Positions 10,767 to 19,654 of a stretch of DNA of 64,000 nt are shown here, one piece after another. The DNA lies in contig JALSOH010000006.1 of the NCBI GenBank assembly GCA_026986575.1, positions 124,001 to 188,000 on the forward strand, written 5' to 3'. How positions within the stretch are numbered: the first letter of the stretch is position 1; every line of letters begins with the position of its first letter. The notes below the pieces were generated by a model. The model saw only the letters and a program-made list of their open reading frames with translations, had not been told where the DNA came from and did no database searches. A program made the translations under genes and the position numbers. Origin of the DNA: Thermoproteota archaeon (GTDB lineage Archaea; Korarchaeota; Korarchaeia; Korarchaeales; Korarchaeaceae).

Positions 10767-10813
10767 AATCCTGAAGGGAGTTGAGAAGAGTGGGTTAAGT
10801 TGGGGTGATCCTA

Positions 10814-11779
10814 ATGCAGATTCTCGCTGGGCCGATAGTACAGATCCTTATGACAGCAATAGGCTTCTCAGGCGGGCTGGCCTTGGCTGCCGCCGGGATA
10901 ACTCTAATATATATGACCACAGGCACCTTCAATTTCGCTCATGCCTCTATGACTGCATGGGGATTCTATATCGTATTTTCACTATACAAGGTGCTGCTAG
11001 GGGGAAATCCCTACTTGTACTTTCCAGTGGCATTCATATTCTCCGGTATCCTAGGAGTCATCACCTATCTAGTAGTGAACAGGTGGCTATTGAAGAGAGG
11101 GGCTGACATGGTCACCCTAATGATGTCGACACTGGGCGTTGACCTCGCCTTCTTCGCATTCATTAACATATTTGCAGATTACCTGACGGCCACATATAAG
11201 GTCAACACTAGACTGATTGTCTTGACCACTGAGGATATAATATTAGGCAAGATTGGCACCTTCCCGTTTAAGGCAATAACGGTAATCTCGGTCGCGATAG
11301 TCGTAGGAATGGCTCTATTCTTCTACCTACTCCTGAACAGAACCAAGTTCGGAATAGCCTTCAGGATAACGGTAGAAAATCCATCTCTAGCCTCAATACT
11401 GGGGATAAATACCGAGACGATTTACCTCTTCGCATGGTTCATGGGAGGAGCGATGGCTGGGCTGGGTGGAGCTATATTGTCTCTAGTGATCAGCGGTACA
11501 CCTACCGTCGGGAACACTGTGATAGTACCAGAATTCGCCGCATCAATAGTGGGAGGTCTCTACTCAATATATGGCGGACTAGTTGGAGGATTCCTAATTG
11601 GTCTCAGCCAGAAGCTGATAATAAACTGGTTAGGAAGCGTACTGGGAGGCAACATAGTGGTTTACGAGCCCATCATACCTCTGCTCATAATGGCTGCGAC
11701 GCTTCTGCTCTACCCAGAGGGTCTCGCTGGTATAGATTGGAGGAGAATCTTCTCGAGATCGAAGTCTAGCAGGAGGTGA
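10814..11779 (+). CDS. livH: Branched-chain amino acid ABC transporter permease LivH
   Basis: A 321-residue polytopic permease with about eight membrane helices. Family features include GLALAAAGITLIYMTTGTFNFAHA near the N-terminus and the cytoplasmic coupling loop TKFGIAFRITVENPSLASILGINT. FAASIVGGLYSIYGGLVGG is the C-terminal signature. It forms the membrane channel with LivM. I chose ATG 10814-10816: GGGGTGAT lies four bases before it, while GTG 10805 is inside that site. It is divergent from livK and followed by livM after 5 bases. Confidence 0.92.
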   Translation: MQILAGPIVQILMTAIGFSGGLALAAAGITLIYMTTGTFNFAHASMTAWGFYIVFSLYKVLLGGNPYLYFPVAFIFSGILGVITYLVVNRWLLKRGADMVTLMMSTLGVDLAFFAFINIFADYLTATYKVNTRLIVLTTEDIILGKIGTFPFKAITVISVAIVVGMALFFYLLLNRTKFGIAFRITVENPSLASILGINTETIYLFAWFMGGAMAGLGGAILSLVISGTPTVGNTVIVPEFAASIVGGLYSIYGGLVGGFLIGLSQKLIINWLGSVLGGNIVVYEPIIPLLIMAATLLLYPEGLAGIDWRRIFSRSKSSRR

Positions 11780-11784
11780 TAGTT

Positions 11785-12864
11785 ATGATGGAGGGCATAC
11801 TTGAGTACCTCTACAATCCCCTTGTGCTGAGCATCCTAGTTAATATGGCCGTATTCCTCATAGTTACCTTAAGCCTCAACCTAGAAACTGGATTTGCGGG
11901 CATTCCACAGTTCGGTAGGGTGTTAGCAGTTATAGCTGGAGCTATAGGCGCAGGTGCGATAGCAGGAAGGATGATGGCGGCTATGATGGGATTACCTGCA
12001 GGTATCGAATATGTAGGGGATCAGAACTTCGTGATCGTAGGAGAGTTAAACAAAGCCCTGGAATCAAGTCCCCTCCTATCGATAGGAGCTCTCATTCTTA
12101 GTTTGGCTGTGGCGGCAGTAATGGGAGGTATAATGGGCTATCTAGCATCCTATCCAGCGATAAGGTTGAAGGAAGCCTACTTAGGCATCACCCTGCTAGC
12201 TTTCGGCGACGCACTCCAAATAGTGGGAATGTACTACGATCCCTTGGCAGGTGGAACAGCGGGAATAGTAGTCCCCGATGTCTTCAGGTTCGTGGGGACA
12301 GGGGAAATAAGGTTCCTCAGCAGCACATTGATAATACTGGGAATAGCTATCTTGGTATACCTGTATGTCCAAAGGCTAGCTAGATCGCCCTTCGGCAGGG
12401 CCCTCAAGGCCATGAGAGATAATGAGCTCGCTGCCAAGGTATACGGGAAGGACATTGTAAGTTTGAGGGCCAAAACCTTAATCATAGGAGGCGCGCTGGC
12501 TGGGATGGGGGGTGCTCTCTGGACCCTTTACACCGGGAGCTTCAAAGCCCTCACCTACAACAGGCTTACTTGGACCTTCTGGCCTTGGGCGTTCATGATG
12601 TTAGGAGGTACTGGAAATAACCTCGGTATAGTTCTCGGTACCTTGGTATTCTCCACCGTCAGAAGTCTGATCTATGCGTACAAGACTGAACTGACGGCAT
12701 TCATACCAATAAATCCAAATTGGCTTGAGTATCTCCTGATTGGCGTCATAATAATCGCAATTGCCTTGTTCAGACCTCAAGGAATACTTCCAGAGAAGCC
12801 AGAGCTTCCACTATCGAAGAAGAAGATCGAGAGCATAAGGGCTTCCCTAGCTAAGGGAGACTGA
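11785..12864 (+). CDS. livM: Branched-chain amino acid ABC transporter permease LivM
   Basis: A 359-residue permease. LNLETGFAGIPQFGRVLAV near the start and SPFGRALKAMRDNELAAKVYG, the coupling helix, are typical of LivM, as is LIIGGALAGMGGALW. GAGGTGAT lies four bases before ATG 11785; ATG 11788 is also possible. It completes the livHM operon. Its last 14 bases overlap the convergent PgsB-like gene, which is tight packing but without damage to either product. Confidence 0.92.
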   Translation: MMEGILEYLYNPLVLSILVNMAVFLIVTLSLNLETGFAGIPQFGRVLAVIAGAIGAGAIAGRMMAAMMGLPAGIEYVGDQNFVIVGELNKALESSPLLSIGALILSLAVAAVMGGIMGYLASYPAIRLKEAYLGITLLAFGDALQIVGMYYDPLAGGTAGIVVPDVFRFVGTGEIRFLSSTLIILGIAILVYLYVQRLARSPFGRALKAMRDNELAAKVYGKDIVSLRAKTLIIGGALAGMGGALWTLYTGSFKALTYNRLTWTFWPWAFMMLGGTGNNLGIVLGTLVFSTVRSLIYAYKTELTAFIPINPNWLEYLLIGVIIIAIALFRPQGILPEKPELPLSKKKIESIRASLAKGD

Positions 12865-13891
12865 GTACTCCATCTCCACTTTTTCCTATCAATGTGGGGA
12901 TTTCATCCTTGACACCAAGTCTGGGGAGCAGGCACCTCACTAAACTACCCCTCCTATTTCCCGTTATGAATAGAGGTGATCCACTCCTTCTGACTTCACT
13001 TAGGAGAAGGTCCACCCCCTCGCAGGAGTCGGGGAGGTTCATCTCTCCGACCCTCTTGGAAAACTCGTAAGACCACTCTCCAGCCACGGCAACCTTCGAG
13101 TAGTCGACCCATCTCTCCCTAATCATTTTGAGAAAGGCCCATGTCCTCCCGGGCCTGTCCCTTCTGAGCTGAATGAAGATGAAAGGGCTTTCACCCAGCC
13201 ATCTAACCAAAAGGGTCGCGCTATCCGGATCATTAACCTTAGATGCGTCAAAGTAAACTATTCCGTTAATCTCCTTCCACCTAAGCTTCTTCTTGATTGC
13301 CTCAAGGTAAGCATCGATGTTCACACTTCCTAACCCGAGGAATTCCAAGATTTCGTTCAGAAGGACCGGGATCTCAGCACCCGGCAGGTGGGGGTGGGCA
13401 GGTCCGACCCTTACGAGCTTCTTGGCTTTTTTACTCATTATATCGTTTAAGTGATCGTTCGTCTCACCGCTGAACACTATTTCCGCTTTTCCAAAGGAAG
13501 AAGCAATGGATCTGGCTATTTTCTCCCTAGTCCTGCCCATCTCCTCCACGTGATCTAACCTCACATTGGTCACAGCAACGATTTGAGGCTTAACGAAGAG
13601 ATCGTTGAATACCCTCATCGTGTAAGGGGACACTCCCTGATTCTCTAGAACGCAATAATCCGAATGTGGAACGCTGAAGAGATTCTCGTAAAGCCTAGTG
13701 GGTCCTCTACGCCTCAAGATCTTGACGTCCTTTCCGATACAAAGAAGAGGGAGTGTACCAGTGACCTTGCAGAAAGAGGTCTTCTTCCTATAAACTACCT
13801 CACTGTGCAACGAAATGGATAAGCTTGTCTTCCCCCTAGTCCCTTGGACGGAGATCCTCGTATCGGCTATCCTCCAAGGCGGGCCCCTCAT
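12851..13891 (-). CDS. pgsB: PgsB/CapB-like Mur ligase-family amide ligase
   Basis: A 346-residue ATP-dependent ligase of the PgsB/CapB type. The P-loop is VQGTRGKTSLS at about residues 14-24, and KVTGTLP with its following Glu-rich part is the family acyl-phosphate region. VAVTNVRLDHVEEMGRTREKIARSIA around residues 105-125 is the PgsB signature. PgsB polymerises glutamate through the gamma-carboxyl group in capsule formers. Usual length is about 390 residues, so this one is slightly short at the C-terminus. The ATG at 13889-13891 follows GAGGGG; it is 9 bases downstream of the pgsC-like gene, so the two form an operon. The polymer made here is unknown. Confidence 0.8.
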   Translation of the reverse strand: MRGPPWRIADTRISVQGTRGKTSLSISLHSEVVYRKKTSFCKVTGTLPLLCIGKDVKILRRRGPTRLYENLFSVPHSDYCVLENQGVSPYTMRVFNDLFVKPQIVAVTNVRLDHVEEMGRTREKIARSIASSFGKAEIVFSGETNDHLNDIMSKKAKKLVRVGPAHPHLPGAEIPVLLNEILEFLGLGSVNIDAYLEAIKKKLRWKEINGIVYFDASKVNDPDSATLLVRWLGESPFIFIQLRRDRPGRTWAFLKMIRERWVDYSKVAVAGEWSYEFSKRVGEMNLPDSCEGVDLLLSEVRRSGSPLFITGNRRGSLVRCLLPRLGVKDEIPTLIGKSGDGVLSLP

Positions 13892-13900
13892 TCAATCCCC

Positions 13901-14344
13901 TCACACTTTTAGAAAATTAACTAAAATGGAGGTCACGGACAGCTGTAACGTAAAGAATATTGCCGAAAAAGTGACCGTCAATTCCGGTTCTCGCGACGTA
14001 TGTATGTCGTAGGATAACAGTCCAGGGAGCGTGGAAATCAAGAGATACTCGATGCATAAGGAGTTGAAAGTCATAATGAGAACGGTGACGGAGCTGATGA
14101 TGCTCTGAAGAAAGAACATTCTCATTCCATAGAACAGGAATTTCCTGTACACCAGCTCCCCAGCTAAATACGACGTTATAGAACTTACGATGATTACCGG
14201 AATTGATTCAGGCATCAGCGAGGAGAAGGAAGCCAGCAAAGGAATGGACAGGGACACCGCTCTGAAGCTGAACCTTTCATATGCAACCCATACAATAGAA
14301 AGAGCAATGATCAATGATGCGTAAGCCACTATTACTCCTTCCAT
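13901..14344 (-). CDS. pgsC: PgsC/CapC-like membrane protein
   Basis: A 147-residue polytopic membrane protein with about four or five hydrophobic helices, the same size and topology as PgsC/CapC (about 149 residues). LVYRKFLFYGMRMFF, near residue 65, matches the family's basic loop between helices, and PELTVTFSAIFFT is near the C-terminus. PgsC forms the membrane part of poly-gamma-glutamate synthase with PgsB. Sequence identity to the bacterial family appears low, so the assignment leans on the adjacent pgsB-like gene, which follows after 9 bases. No PgsA-like gene is nearby. Confidence 0.65.
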   Translation of the reverse strand: MEGVIVAYASLIIALSIVWVAYERFSFRAVSLSIPLLASFSSLMPESIPVIIVSSITSYLAGELVYRKFLFYGMRMFFLQSIISSVTVLIMTFNSLCIEYLLISTLPGLLSYDIHTSREPELTVTFSAIFFTLQLSVTSILVNFLKV

Positions 14345-14417
14345 CTCCGCTAGAGCCCTTGAATTACAAATAACGGTTTATGTCAAAAGGCGAAATTCGA
14401 ATCGTGATGTTAAAGAC

Positions 14418-14430
14418 CTTAATATTTAAT
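14418..14430 (+). promoter_or_regulatory. TATA box of gdhA
   Basis: CTTAATATTTAAT lies about 50 bases before the gdhA ATG, giving a leader of about 25-30 bases. Confidence 0.55.
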
Positions 14431-14445
14431 AGCTTTCGGACCTTC

Positions 14446-14473
14446 ATATCCACGACCCTTCAAGGGGGGATAT
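14446..14473 (+). promoter_or_regulatory. Inverted repeat in the gdhA leader covering the ribosome binding site
   Basis: ATATCC (14446-14451) can pair with GGATAT (14468-14473), and a weaker inner pairing CCC/GGG (14456-14458 with 14464-14466) lies between. The purine-rich ribosome binding site GGGGGG before the ATG at 14477 falls inside this structure. Folding would limit initiation; this is inferred from sequence only. Confidence 0.4.
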
Positions 14474-14476
14474 CCT

Positions 14477-15745
14477 ATGTCCACGGAACTCAATCCATGG
14501 GAAGTTGCCCTTAAGCAGCTTGATAAGGCTGCTAAGGTTATGAATCTCGATCCCGGACTACATGCGATTTTGGCCAAGCCCAAGAGGGTCCTCGAGGTGG
14601 CCCTCCCCGTCAAGATGGATGATGGATCCATAAAGGTCTTCACTGGGTGGAGGGTCCAGCACAACGACGCTAGGGGGCCCCACAAGGGAGGTATAAGGTA
14701 CCACCCCAACACCGATGTTAACGAGGTCAAGGCTCTAGCCATGTGGATGACTTGGAAGACCGCCGTCGTTGATGTGCCCTATGGTGGTGCCAAAGGAGGA
14801 ATACAGGTAGATCCTCACAAGCTCAGCCTTGCCGAGCTAGAGAGGCTCACTAGGAGATACGCCTATGCAATAGCCCCCATAATCGGTGTGGATGCCGATA
14901 TTCCTGCTCCCGACGTGTACACCTCCCCGAGGGAAATGGCTTGGATAATGGACACCTACAGCATGCTCAAGGGCTACCCCGAGCCCGGTATAATCACCGG
15001 CAAGCCGCTCGAGATAGGCGGTAGTGAGGGCAGAGTGGAGGCCACCGCTAGAGGTCTGCAATACACCGTTGAGGAGGCGCTTAAAGTCCTCGGTATAGAT
15101 CCGAAGGGAGCCACTGCTGCCGTGCAGGGATACGGTAATGCTGGTTACTTCTCCGCCAAGTTCATGCATGAGCTCGGTATGAAGGTCGTGGCAGTGAGCG
15201 ACACTAGAGGCGCCATCTACAACCCCGACGGCCTCGATCCCGATGCCGTGCTCGAGCACAAGAAGAAGACCGGCAGCGTGAAGGACTTCCCTGGCTCCAC
15301 TCCGATAGCTGCAGATCCTATAGAGGGTAACAAGAAGCTGCTCGAGCTTGATGTGGATGTGCTGATCCCTGCTGCAATTGAGAATGTAATAACTAAGGAG
15401 AACGCCGACAATGTGAAGGCAAAGATAGTGGCCGAGGCTGCCAACGGTCCGACCACGCCTGAGGCTGATGAGATACTGTTCCAGAAGGGCGTGCTTATAA
15501 TACCTGACATCCTCGCCAACGCCGGTGGTGTGACCGTCAGCTACTTCGAGTGGGTGCAGGCTAGGACTAGGGAGTGGTGGGACATAGACACCGTCAGGCA
15601 GAAGCTCAGGGCCAAGATGACCAAGGCCTTCAGGGACGTCTACAACAAGCACAAGGAAATGAACATAGACATGAGGACCGCTGCTCTGGTACTCGCTGTC
15701 GGCAGAGTGGCCAAGGCCATGGAGATCAGGGGCATTTGGCCCTGA
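14477..15745 (+). CDS. gdhA: Glutamate dehydrogenase
   Basis: A 422-residue hexameric-type glutamate dehydrogenase, the usual length. [21 protein letters not shown] and [13 protein letters not shown] (catalytic Lys) form the substrate site, and [14 protein letters not shown] is the NAD(P) Rossmann loop. [19 protein letters not shown] is the family C-terminal motif. It converts glutamate to 2-oxoglutarate and ammonia and recycles the amino acceptor for the aminotransferases of this window. It has its own promoter and a T-rich tract after the stop. The coding part is richer in GC3 than its neighbours, consistent with high expression. Confidence 0.97.
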
Positions 15746-18277: not shown

Positions 18278-19654
18278 ATGAGACCTAGCTATATAATGCT
18301 GGCTTTCCTTCTAGCGTTCTTGTTCTTACTTTCTCCGTTATACGCACTTTCCTCACCTGAGGATGCAAAACTATATCTGAAACCCACGAGTGATACCTAC
18401 ATTTCCAAGGAATGTAGAGATTGCAAGATGTTCAATGAAAGCGAACTCAGAGTGGGGATGGAAGCTATTAAAGAGAGAAATCCTTTCGTTATCTCTCATG
18501 TAGAGTATAGGGTGATCCTCAGGGGCCCCTACAGCTCGCTGATAAAATTCAACTTATCCGAGATACCACCTGGGGCCGAAATAAAGCTTGCTAGACTCTG
18601 GCTTTACGTCAAGGAACCTCCTGAGGGCGGTTTGAAACTTCTACTTTACGTTTTAAGGGAGAAGTTCAATGACACGGAGACCACGTGGATTTACAGGACT
18701 AGCAGGGCTCGGTGGAAGACCTCCGGGGGGTACGCCGAACCAGACTATCTTACTAAGATCAGGGTGGACGAGACCCTCTCTGAAGGAAGGTCTGTAGGTT
18801 TCTTGGTAACAGACTATGTTAAGAGGGTCCTAAGTGGCCAAATAGAGGATTATGGACTGATAATAAGGCCAGATGTCGGCAAAGTGGAAGTCTCGGACTT
18901 CGGATCATCCTCGCACATGAATTTATATGTCGACTTCTACAGCAGCGAAGGTGCTGTTAGGGAGCACAAGAGCAAATATGTCCCCACACTTTACGTCGAG
19001 TTCGTCAAACCAACAGCTATCCTGAACATATCGAAGGACAGGGTAACTCTAGAAAGGGGAGAAAGTACCGAAGTAACTCTCATGGAAAGTGGGACCTTCC
19101 TTGGAAGTGTTGGACTTGGATACAGGATTGTAGAGGCCCCAAGTCTGAAAGTAGGCCCGCTTAAGATTACAATATCCAATTATACCAAGGAACCGGGATT
19201 CTCTGCCAATGTAAAGGTGGAAGCCAGCAAATACGCGCCCCCAGGGAAGTACGTGATAGAGTTCTATCCCGATACCTTCGGATATGGATCAGATGTAGTC
19301 GAATGGGGAAAGGTCAATCTTACCGTCACCGTTTCAGGAGAAACGGGAACCGAGGTTACATCGACTACTGAGTCCCAAACCGAAACCGGAACGCCCCCAA
19401 CGCAGACATCCGAGATCGGAACAACCACTCAGTCAACTATTGAGACATCTACCACAGAGTTCACGGGGACGGGAACTAGACCGACTAGCGGACCTCAAGG
19501 AGGTTCGTTCGCCCCTCAGTCCACAAGCAAGACAGCGATTACAGTCACTAGGACCACGACCAAGCCGCGCAGCCTAAGTCCTCTCACAGTAGCACTGGAA
19601 ATAATTGTGGTTGTACTTCTGGTGGCGGCCTTCCTGCTGATCAGGAGGAGGTAA
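18278..19654 (+). CDS. Cell-surface protein with DNRLRE-like domain and C-terminal anchor
   Basis: A 458-residue secreted protein. A signal peptide covers residues 1-25 (LAFLLAFLFLLSPLYALS). The LYLKPTSDTYIS start and LIKFNLSEIPPGAEIKLARL strand pattern, residues 30-240, resemble the DNRLRE beta-sandwich domain of surface and polysaccharide-binding proteins. A second beta domain follows to about residue 360, then a Thr/Ser-rich stalk of about 75 residues, suited to O-glycosylation, and a C-terminal membrane helix ending RRR. It is therefore held in the membrane with the bulk outside. A TATA-like AATTTAAATAGG is about 45 bases upstream. The ligand is unknown. Confidence 0.75.
   Translation: MRPSYIMLAFLLAFLFLLSPLYALSSPEDAKLYLKPTSDTYISKECRDCKMFNESELRVGMEAIKERNPFVISHVEYRVILRGPYSSLIKFNLSEIPPGAEIKLARLWLYVKEPPEGGLKLLLYVLREKFNDTETTWIYRTSRARWKTSGGYAEPDYLTKIRVDETLSEGRSVGFLVTDYVKRVLSGQIEDYGLIIRPDVGKVEVSDFGSSSHMNLYVDFYSSEGAVREHKSKYVPTLYVEFVKPTAILNISKDRVTLERGESTEVTLMESGTFLGSVGLGYRIVEAPSLKVGPLKITISNYTKEPGFSANVKVEASKYAPPGKYVIEFYPDTFGYGSDVVEWGKVNLTVTVSGETGTEVTSTTESQTETGTPPTQTSEIGTTTQSTIETSTTEFTGTGTRPTSGPQGGSFAPQSTSKTAITVTRTTTKPRSLSPLTVALEIIVVVLLVAAFLLIRRR

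Follow-up and report, generated by a model that had tools for sequence, protein, structure and literature searches.

A PgsB- and PgsC-like gene pair beside glutamate dehydrogenase in Korarchaeia as a candidate gamma-polyglutamate synthase without PgsA

Could two adjacent genes of a korarchaeon form a poly-gamma-glutamate synthase that works without PgsA? The question arises from a 64,000-nucleotide stretch of archaeal DNA, here called the window, in which an initial annotation had recognized a Mur ligase-like enzyme with the PgsB signature and a PgsC-sized membrane protein, encoded 9 bases apart and placed next to glutamate dehydrogenase (GDH) and an amino acid transporter. The features of the locus are listed in Table 1.

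Table 1. Genes and intergenic region at the pgsC-pgsB locus, in window coordinates.
Feature	Position	Strand	Description
pgsC-like (capC)	13901..14344	-	membrane protein of 147 aa, helical throughout; leads the pair
pgsB-like (capB)	12851..13891	-	Mur-type amide ligase of 346 aa that lacks a membrane anchor at its N-terminus; follows pgsC
pgsC-gdh intergenic region	14345..14476	.	132 bp, presumed divergent promoter region
glutamate dehydrogenase (gdh)	14477..15745	+	divergent from pgsC; NF040817 GdhA_Arch, E = 6e-194
livH/livM-type branched-chain amino-acid permease genes	10805..12864	+	convergent with pgsB

Both reading frames were found as described, separated by a spacer of 9 bases (13892-13900), and pgsC and pgsB are probably carried on one transcript. 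The pair is real and not a chance arrangement of open reading frames, because it recurs in adjacent form within the genus and beyond it and because its dN/dS values, measured against the closely related genome G015, are low (0.12 for pgsB and 0.22 for pgsC); both genes are under purifying selection. The 3' ends of pgsB and the convergent livM-like gene overlap by 14 bp. On the opposite side, the 132 bp between the divergent pgsC and gdh contain conserved blocks, TTAATATTTAATAG upstream of gdh and GTCAAAaGGCGAA on the pgsC side, which are kept across 9 genomes whose PgsC proteins share 46-91% identity. The gdh gene has a single match in the window's own genome. Further along the window, at 18278-19654, a 458-aa open reading frame has a secreted appearance, with a signal-like stretch at its N-terminus, a Thr/Ser-rich tail and a C-terminal hydrophobic segment; it has relatives in 5 fetched loci and may possibly be a surface protein.

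The best named family of the window ligase in a profile search was PgsB (TIGR04012; 64.9 bits, E = 5e-18), followed by FolC (23.2 bits, E = 4e-5), MurF (E = 0.014) and the remaining Mur-type models (E of at least 0.12). The pMur models gave no match to the window ligase at E ≤ 10, and in a Pfam search it matched Mur_ligase_M alone, just below the cut-off of that model. Its TIGR04012 score lies under the curated equivalog cut-off of 222.7 bits, as do those of two haloarchaeal relatives (85.6 and 103.8 bits). TIGR04012 is nevertheless matched by all 22 aligned relatives of the ligase (best E = 3.7e-27) and is the family that most members match. When a profile of the ligase family was compared by hhalign with Bacillus subtilis PgsB, a reference sequence validated against TIGR04012 at 573 bits, the two aligned over 291 columns covering both the ATPase and the C-terminal domain (probability 99.2, E = 9e-20). 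The window ligase contains the motifs GTRGKT, ENQ and LDH, as well as the C-terminal ND..S/RxDRxxR motif of PgsB, and the hhalign alignment pairs NDPDS/RRDRPGRT of the family with NDASS/RADRVDRT of B. subtilis PgsB. Columns invariant in the family include the GxRGK P-loop, the E-N at the SECMA position of PgsB, the LDH histidine, ND..S and R..R..R.

The ligase could alternatively be an enzyme of the folylpolyglutamate synthase or Mur/pseudomurein type whose substrate is a small cytoplasmic molecule; the membrane protein would then be an unrelated neighbour. The weak FolC match is in line with this reading, and so are the best PDB fold matches of the AlphaFold model of the ligase (pLDDT 88), which are FolC and MurD; the fold is of the FolC/Mur kind, and a UDP-binding domain at the N-terminus is not evident in the 346 residues. 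We nevertheless judge this reading highly improbable. In the same search the PgsB score far exceeds that of FolC, which falls well under the folC cut-off (162.65 bits), and the C-terminal motif is that of PgsB. The lysine that follows the DH motif in archaeal FolC (EKIAKEKAG), which we take to be the carbamylated lysine, is replaced by I or F in the ligase family and by F in PgsB. In a maximum-likelihood tree, from which bacterial Mur ligases were left out, the ligase family and PgsB stand apart from archaeal FolC with support 100/100; the exact place of B. subtilis PgsB within this tree is unsure because its branch is long. A PgsC-like partner also accompanies the ligase constantly in archaea, which argues against an unrelated neighbour. 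By sequence alone, the window ligase gave no useful match and B. subtilis PgsB no match among solved structures. The window ligase is related to PgsB/CapB but falls short of full membership under the curated bacterial models. Its sequence contains no N-terminal hydrophobic membrane anchor of the Bacillus PgsB type, so that contact with the membrane would have to come via PgsC.

For the 147-aa protein of the window, the best Pfam match was CapC (PF14102; 19.9 bits, E = 0.0011, below the cut-off of 27 bits). The same model is matched by 11 of 18 relatives of this protein (best E = 2.6e-14), and its gathering score is passed by a paralogue from another genome of the genus (locus L053; 54.1 bits) and by archaeal relatives (52-95 bits). 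The family profile aligned by hhalign with B. subtilis PgsC, which scores 131 bits against PF14102, at E = 7e-7 and probability 91.9. The protein is strongly hydrophobic, and its AlphaFold model is all helix (pLDDT 93.9); the model had no match at E ≤ 0.001 in a fold search of the PDB, and a sequence search of the PDB gave no solved relative. Wherever the gene was found it adjoins pgsB. The protein is homologous to PgsC/CapC at the profile level, a small helical membrane protein encoded next to pgsB. The profile searches therefore uphold the initial annotation in the families best matched by the two proteins, but not at the curated cut-offs, which both miss. A ligase closer to Mur enzymes or FolC, together with a membrane protein outside PgsC, was the result that would have told against that annotation, and the opposite was observed.

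The pair was present in 14 of the 16 Korarchaeum-genus genomes, the window's own included, the other two being 63% and 70% complete. We take genome G009 to be K. cryptofilum, and the genus name Korarchaeum as used here rests on that genome. All three genomes of the sister genus (the Methanodesulfokora group), which belongs to the same family of the class Korarchaeia as the window genome, have the pair as well. A sequence search of the remaining genera of the family found none, and no relatives of the pair were found in the viral contigs searched. About 40 other archaeal loci carry similar pairs, with no GDH found nearby; haloarchaea commonly have them, and they also occur in Methanosarcinaceae, Methanomicrobiaceae and one Acidilobaceae metagenome-assembled genome (MAG), so that the expectation of poly-gamma-glutamate synthases in only "a few haloarchaea" was too low. 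Across Korarchaeia and euryarchaea the two genes mostly overlap or lie no more than about 25 bp apart. Profile evidence gives most archaeal PgsB loci a PgsC-like neighbour, in contrast to a BLASTp survey of 2015 in which PgsC was not found in archaea (PMC4497714). CapB and CapC have been published for Haloquadratum walsbyi (PMC1544339), and CapB in Korarchaeota is already reported in a further paper (PMC11915815). We found no description of the korarchaeial PgsC partner, the block with GDH or the absence of PgsA in the literature searched, which covers few subscription journals. One Korarchaeum-genus genome contains a second, divergent PgsC-PgsB pair (L053, G005:C18, 6036-7759), which comes immediately after a transporter operon of the liv type and a gene resembling Amdase/EutA, and whose ligase groups as sister to one in an Acidilobaceae MAG.

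The two neighbours named at the outset fared differently. GDH is divergently adjacent to pgsC in all 17 Korarchaeia loci. The amino acid transporter does adjoin the pair in the window but is absent in several relatives; a liv transporter as constant partner was rejected, as it lies beside pgsB in part of the loci and elsewhere lies on the GDH side or is missing, and the livH/livM permease genes are probably not part of the system. The gene order in the window is livM(+) / pgsB(-) pgsC(-) gdh(+) / radical-SAM(-), compared with livM(+) / gdh(-) pgsC(+) pgsB(+) / radical-SAM(-) in G009, an order found reversed in G010 and G011. Some members of the genus thus appear to have undergone an inversion that turned pgsB, pgsC and gdh around together as a single block. 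The distal neighbour of the pair varies by locus and includes livM, radical SAM, aminotransferase and FAD-enzyme genes, among others.

It is possible that GDH stays next to the pair by positional inheritance and has no metabolic link to it. In a genome of a related genus (G018, L151), gdh is followed after about 178 bp by an FAD-enzyme gene, the same one that borders the pair in Methanodesulfokora (L048-L050), with no pair between them. This junction resembles a vacant site for the pair, so that pgsC and pgsB come or go together, and their adjacency to GDH could reflect an inherited position and a shared promoter region. The short intergenic region could by itself hold the genes together, and the non-korarchaeal pairs have no GDH match in the fetched flanks. 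On the other hand, GDH was never lost while the distal neighbours changed, and the trio seems to have been inverted together; the statistical weight of this constancy is modest, because it amounts to about 4 distal changes against none. We give positional inheritance a substantial chance, somewhat short of even. It competes only with the GDH step of the explanation favoured below and does not exclude the remainder. The association with GDH is real, but because position may simply be inherited it is no more than moderate evidence for a metabolic link.

Between the window and G009, identity is 81% for GDH, 74% for the radical SAM protein and 68% for LivM, compared with 34% for PgsB and 24% for PgsC; here and among relatives, the two proteins of the pair (12851-14344) diverge far faster than all neighbours compared. 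The K. cryptofilum-group PgsB is closer to that of Methanodesulfokora than to that of the window. We considered whether the window clade had exchanged its pair for another in place and rejected this, as GDH shows the same pattern (85-86% vs 81%), which makes vertical descent with fast divergence the simpler account.

With divergence this much faster than in the slow neighbours, the substrate could have changed. The pair may be a PgsB/PgsC relative with a different gamma- or beta-linked product, such as a mixed polyamide or glutamate tails on a surface glycan, lipid or S-layer protein. Such a product would also be in keeping with the missed bacterial cut-offs, with the lack of detectable PgsA and Gamma_PGA_hydro (see below), and with a published proposal that links haloarchaeal CapB to glutaminylglycan, a poly-gamma-L-glutamate carrying oligosaccharides (PMC11915815). 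However, the PgsB-type motifs are invariant across the whole family and the constant GDH neighbour points to glutamate, and we consider a different product unlikely.

Accessory functions are sparse. As the initial annotation had it, the pair occurs without PgsA: PgsA/CapA (PF09587) had no match in the window genome (completeness 99.7%), nor in any of the other genomes of the two genera that carry the pair. Gamma_PGA_hydro was found in none of the 25 genomes searched. Gamma-glutamyltranspeptidase is present in part of the genus and was not found in the window genome. The only match of the Asp/Glu-racemase superfamily in the window genome is weak (41.7 bits), and a similarly placed match in a relative has Amdase/EutA as its best family. 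The racemase-superfamily gene beside the second PgsC-PgsB pair in G005 was rejected as a source of D-glutamate, its best match being Amdase/EutA and its position the end of a liv-type operon. A locus of the window genome (L147) has a racemase-family match and adjacent open reading frames arranged much as in G005, with no PgsB match. In B. subtilis, PgsB and PgsC without PgsA suffice at high expression and give an L-rich polymer (PMC6029982); other Bacillus work, as cited in that paper, held all three, PgsA included, to be essential.

These results lead us to propose, with fair but not high confidence, that the pair is a two-component, PgsA-less, L-glutamate-using gamma-polyglutamate synthase. 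PgsB, as an ATP-dependent ligase of the Mur/FolC type, would convert the carboxylate of the growing chain to an acyl phosphate and add L-glutamate through a gamma-amide bond. PgsC would probably hold PgsB at the membrane and probably share in polymerization and in export of the chain, and the glutamate would be drawn from a pool controlled by the divergently encoded GDH. A more specific scenario, in which a minimal korarchaeial PgsC-PgsB synthase free of both PgsA and anchor is deployed with GDH as one unit and coats peptidoglycan-free cells with poly-gamma-L-glutamate, or in which the fast-evolving lineage of the window now makes some other gamma-linked polyamide, is speculative and we regard it as rather doubtful. 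If the proposed synthase is real, gamma-polyglutamate synthesis extends to Korarchaeia, PgsB and PgsC alone can be a synthase core, and a thermostable PgsA-less pair would be a simple system in which to work out the mechanism of PgsC. It also supplies a concrete hypothesis about an envelope polymer in a lineage that has scarcely been cultured.

Among known systems, FolC has in common with the window ligase the fold of the ATPase and C-terminal domains and gamma-glutamyl amide chemistry, whereas the window ligase lacks the FolC lysine, has another C-terminal motif and a membrane-protein partner, and scores far lower against the FolC model. The pseudomurein ligases pMurC/D/E share the archaeal Mur ligase fold and give weak profile matches in some relatives, but the window ligase, at 346 aa, has no separate N-terminal domain evident. 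The CapC-CapB pairs of haloarchaea and Methanosarcinaceae have the same PgsC-PgsB order, with genes that overlap, and the same ligase family, with about 30% identity. Unlike the korarchaeial pairs, they show no GDH match in the fetched flanks; their PgsC is often about 387 aa long rather than 147 aa, and their PgsB often has an extra N-terminal region that the window ligase lacks. At such loci (L103, L084 and others), both of the long PgsC proteins examined contain two CapC matches, and the extra region of PgsB matches DUF1508 (L103) or HVO_2922 (4 alignment members). With the B. subtilis system PgsB-PgsC(-PgsA-PgsE), in which PgsBC is the essential core of the poly-gamma-glutamate synthase (PMC6029982), the korarchaeial pair shares a Mur-type ligase with PgsB motifs and a small PgsC encoded by adjacent genes. 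It differs from that system in its gene order, C-B as against B-C-A in Bacillus, in the lack of a detected PgsA and of an N-terminal anchor on the ligase, and in scores under the curated cut-offs.
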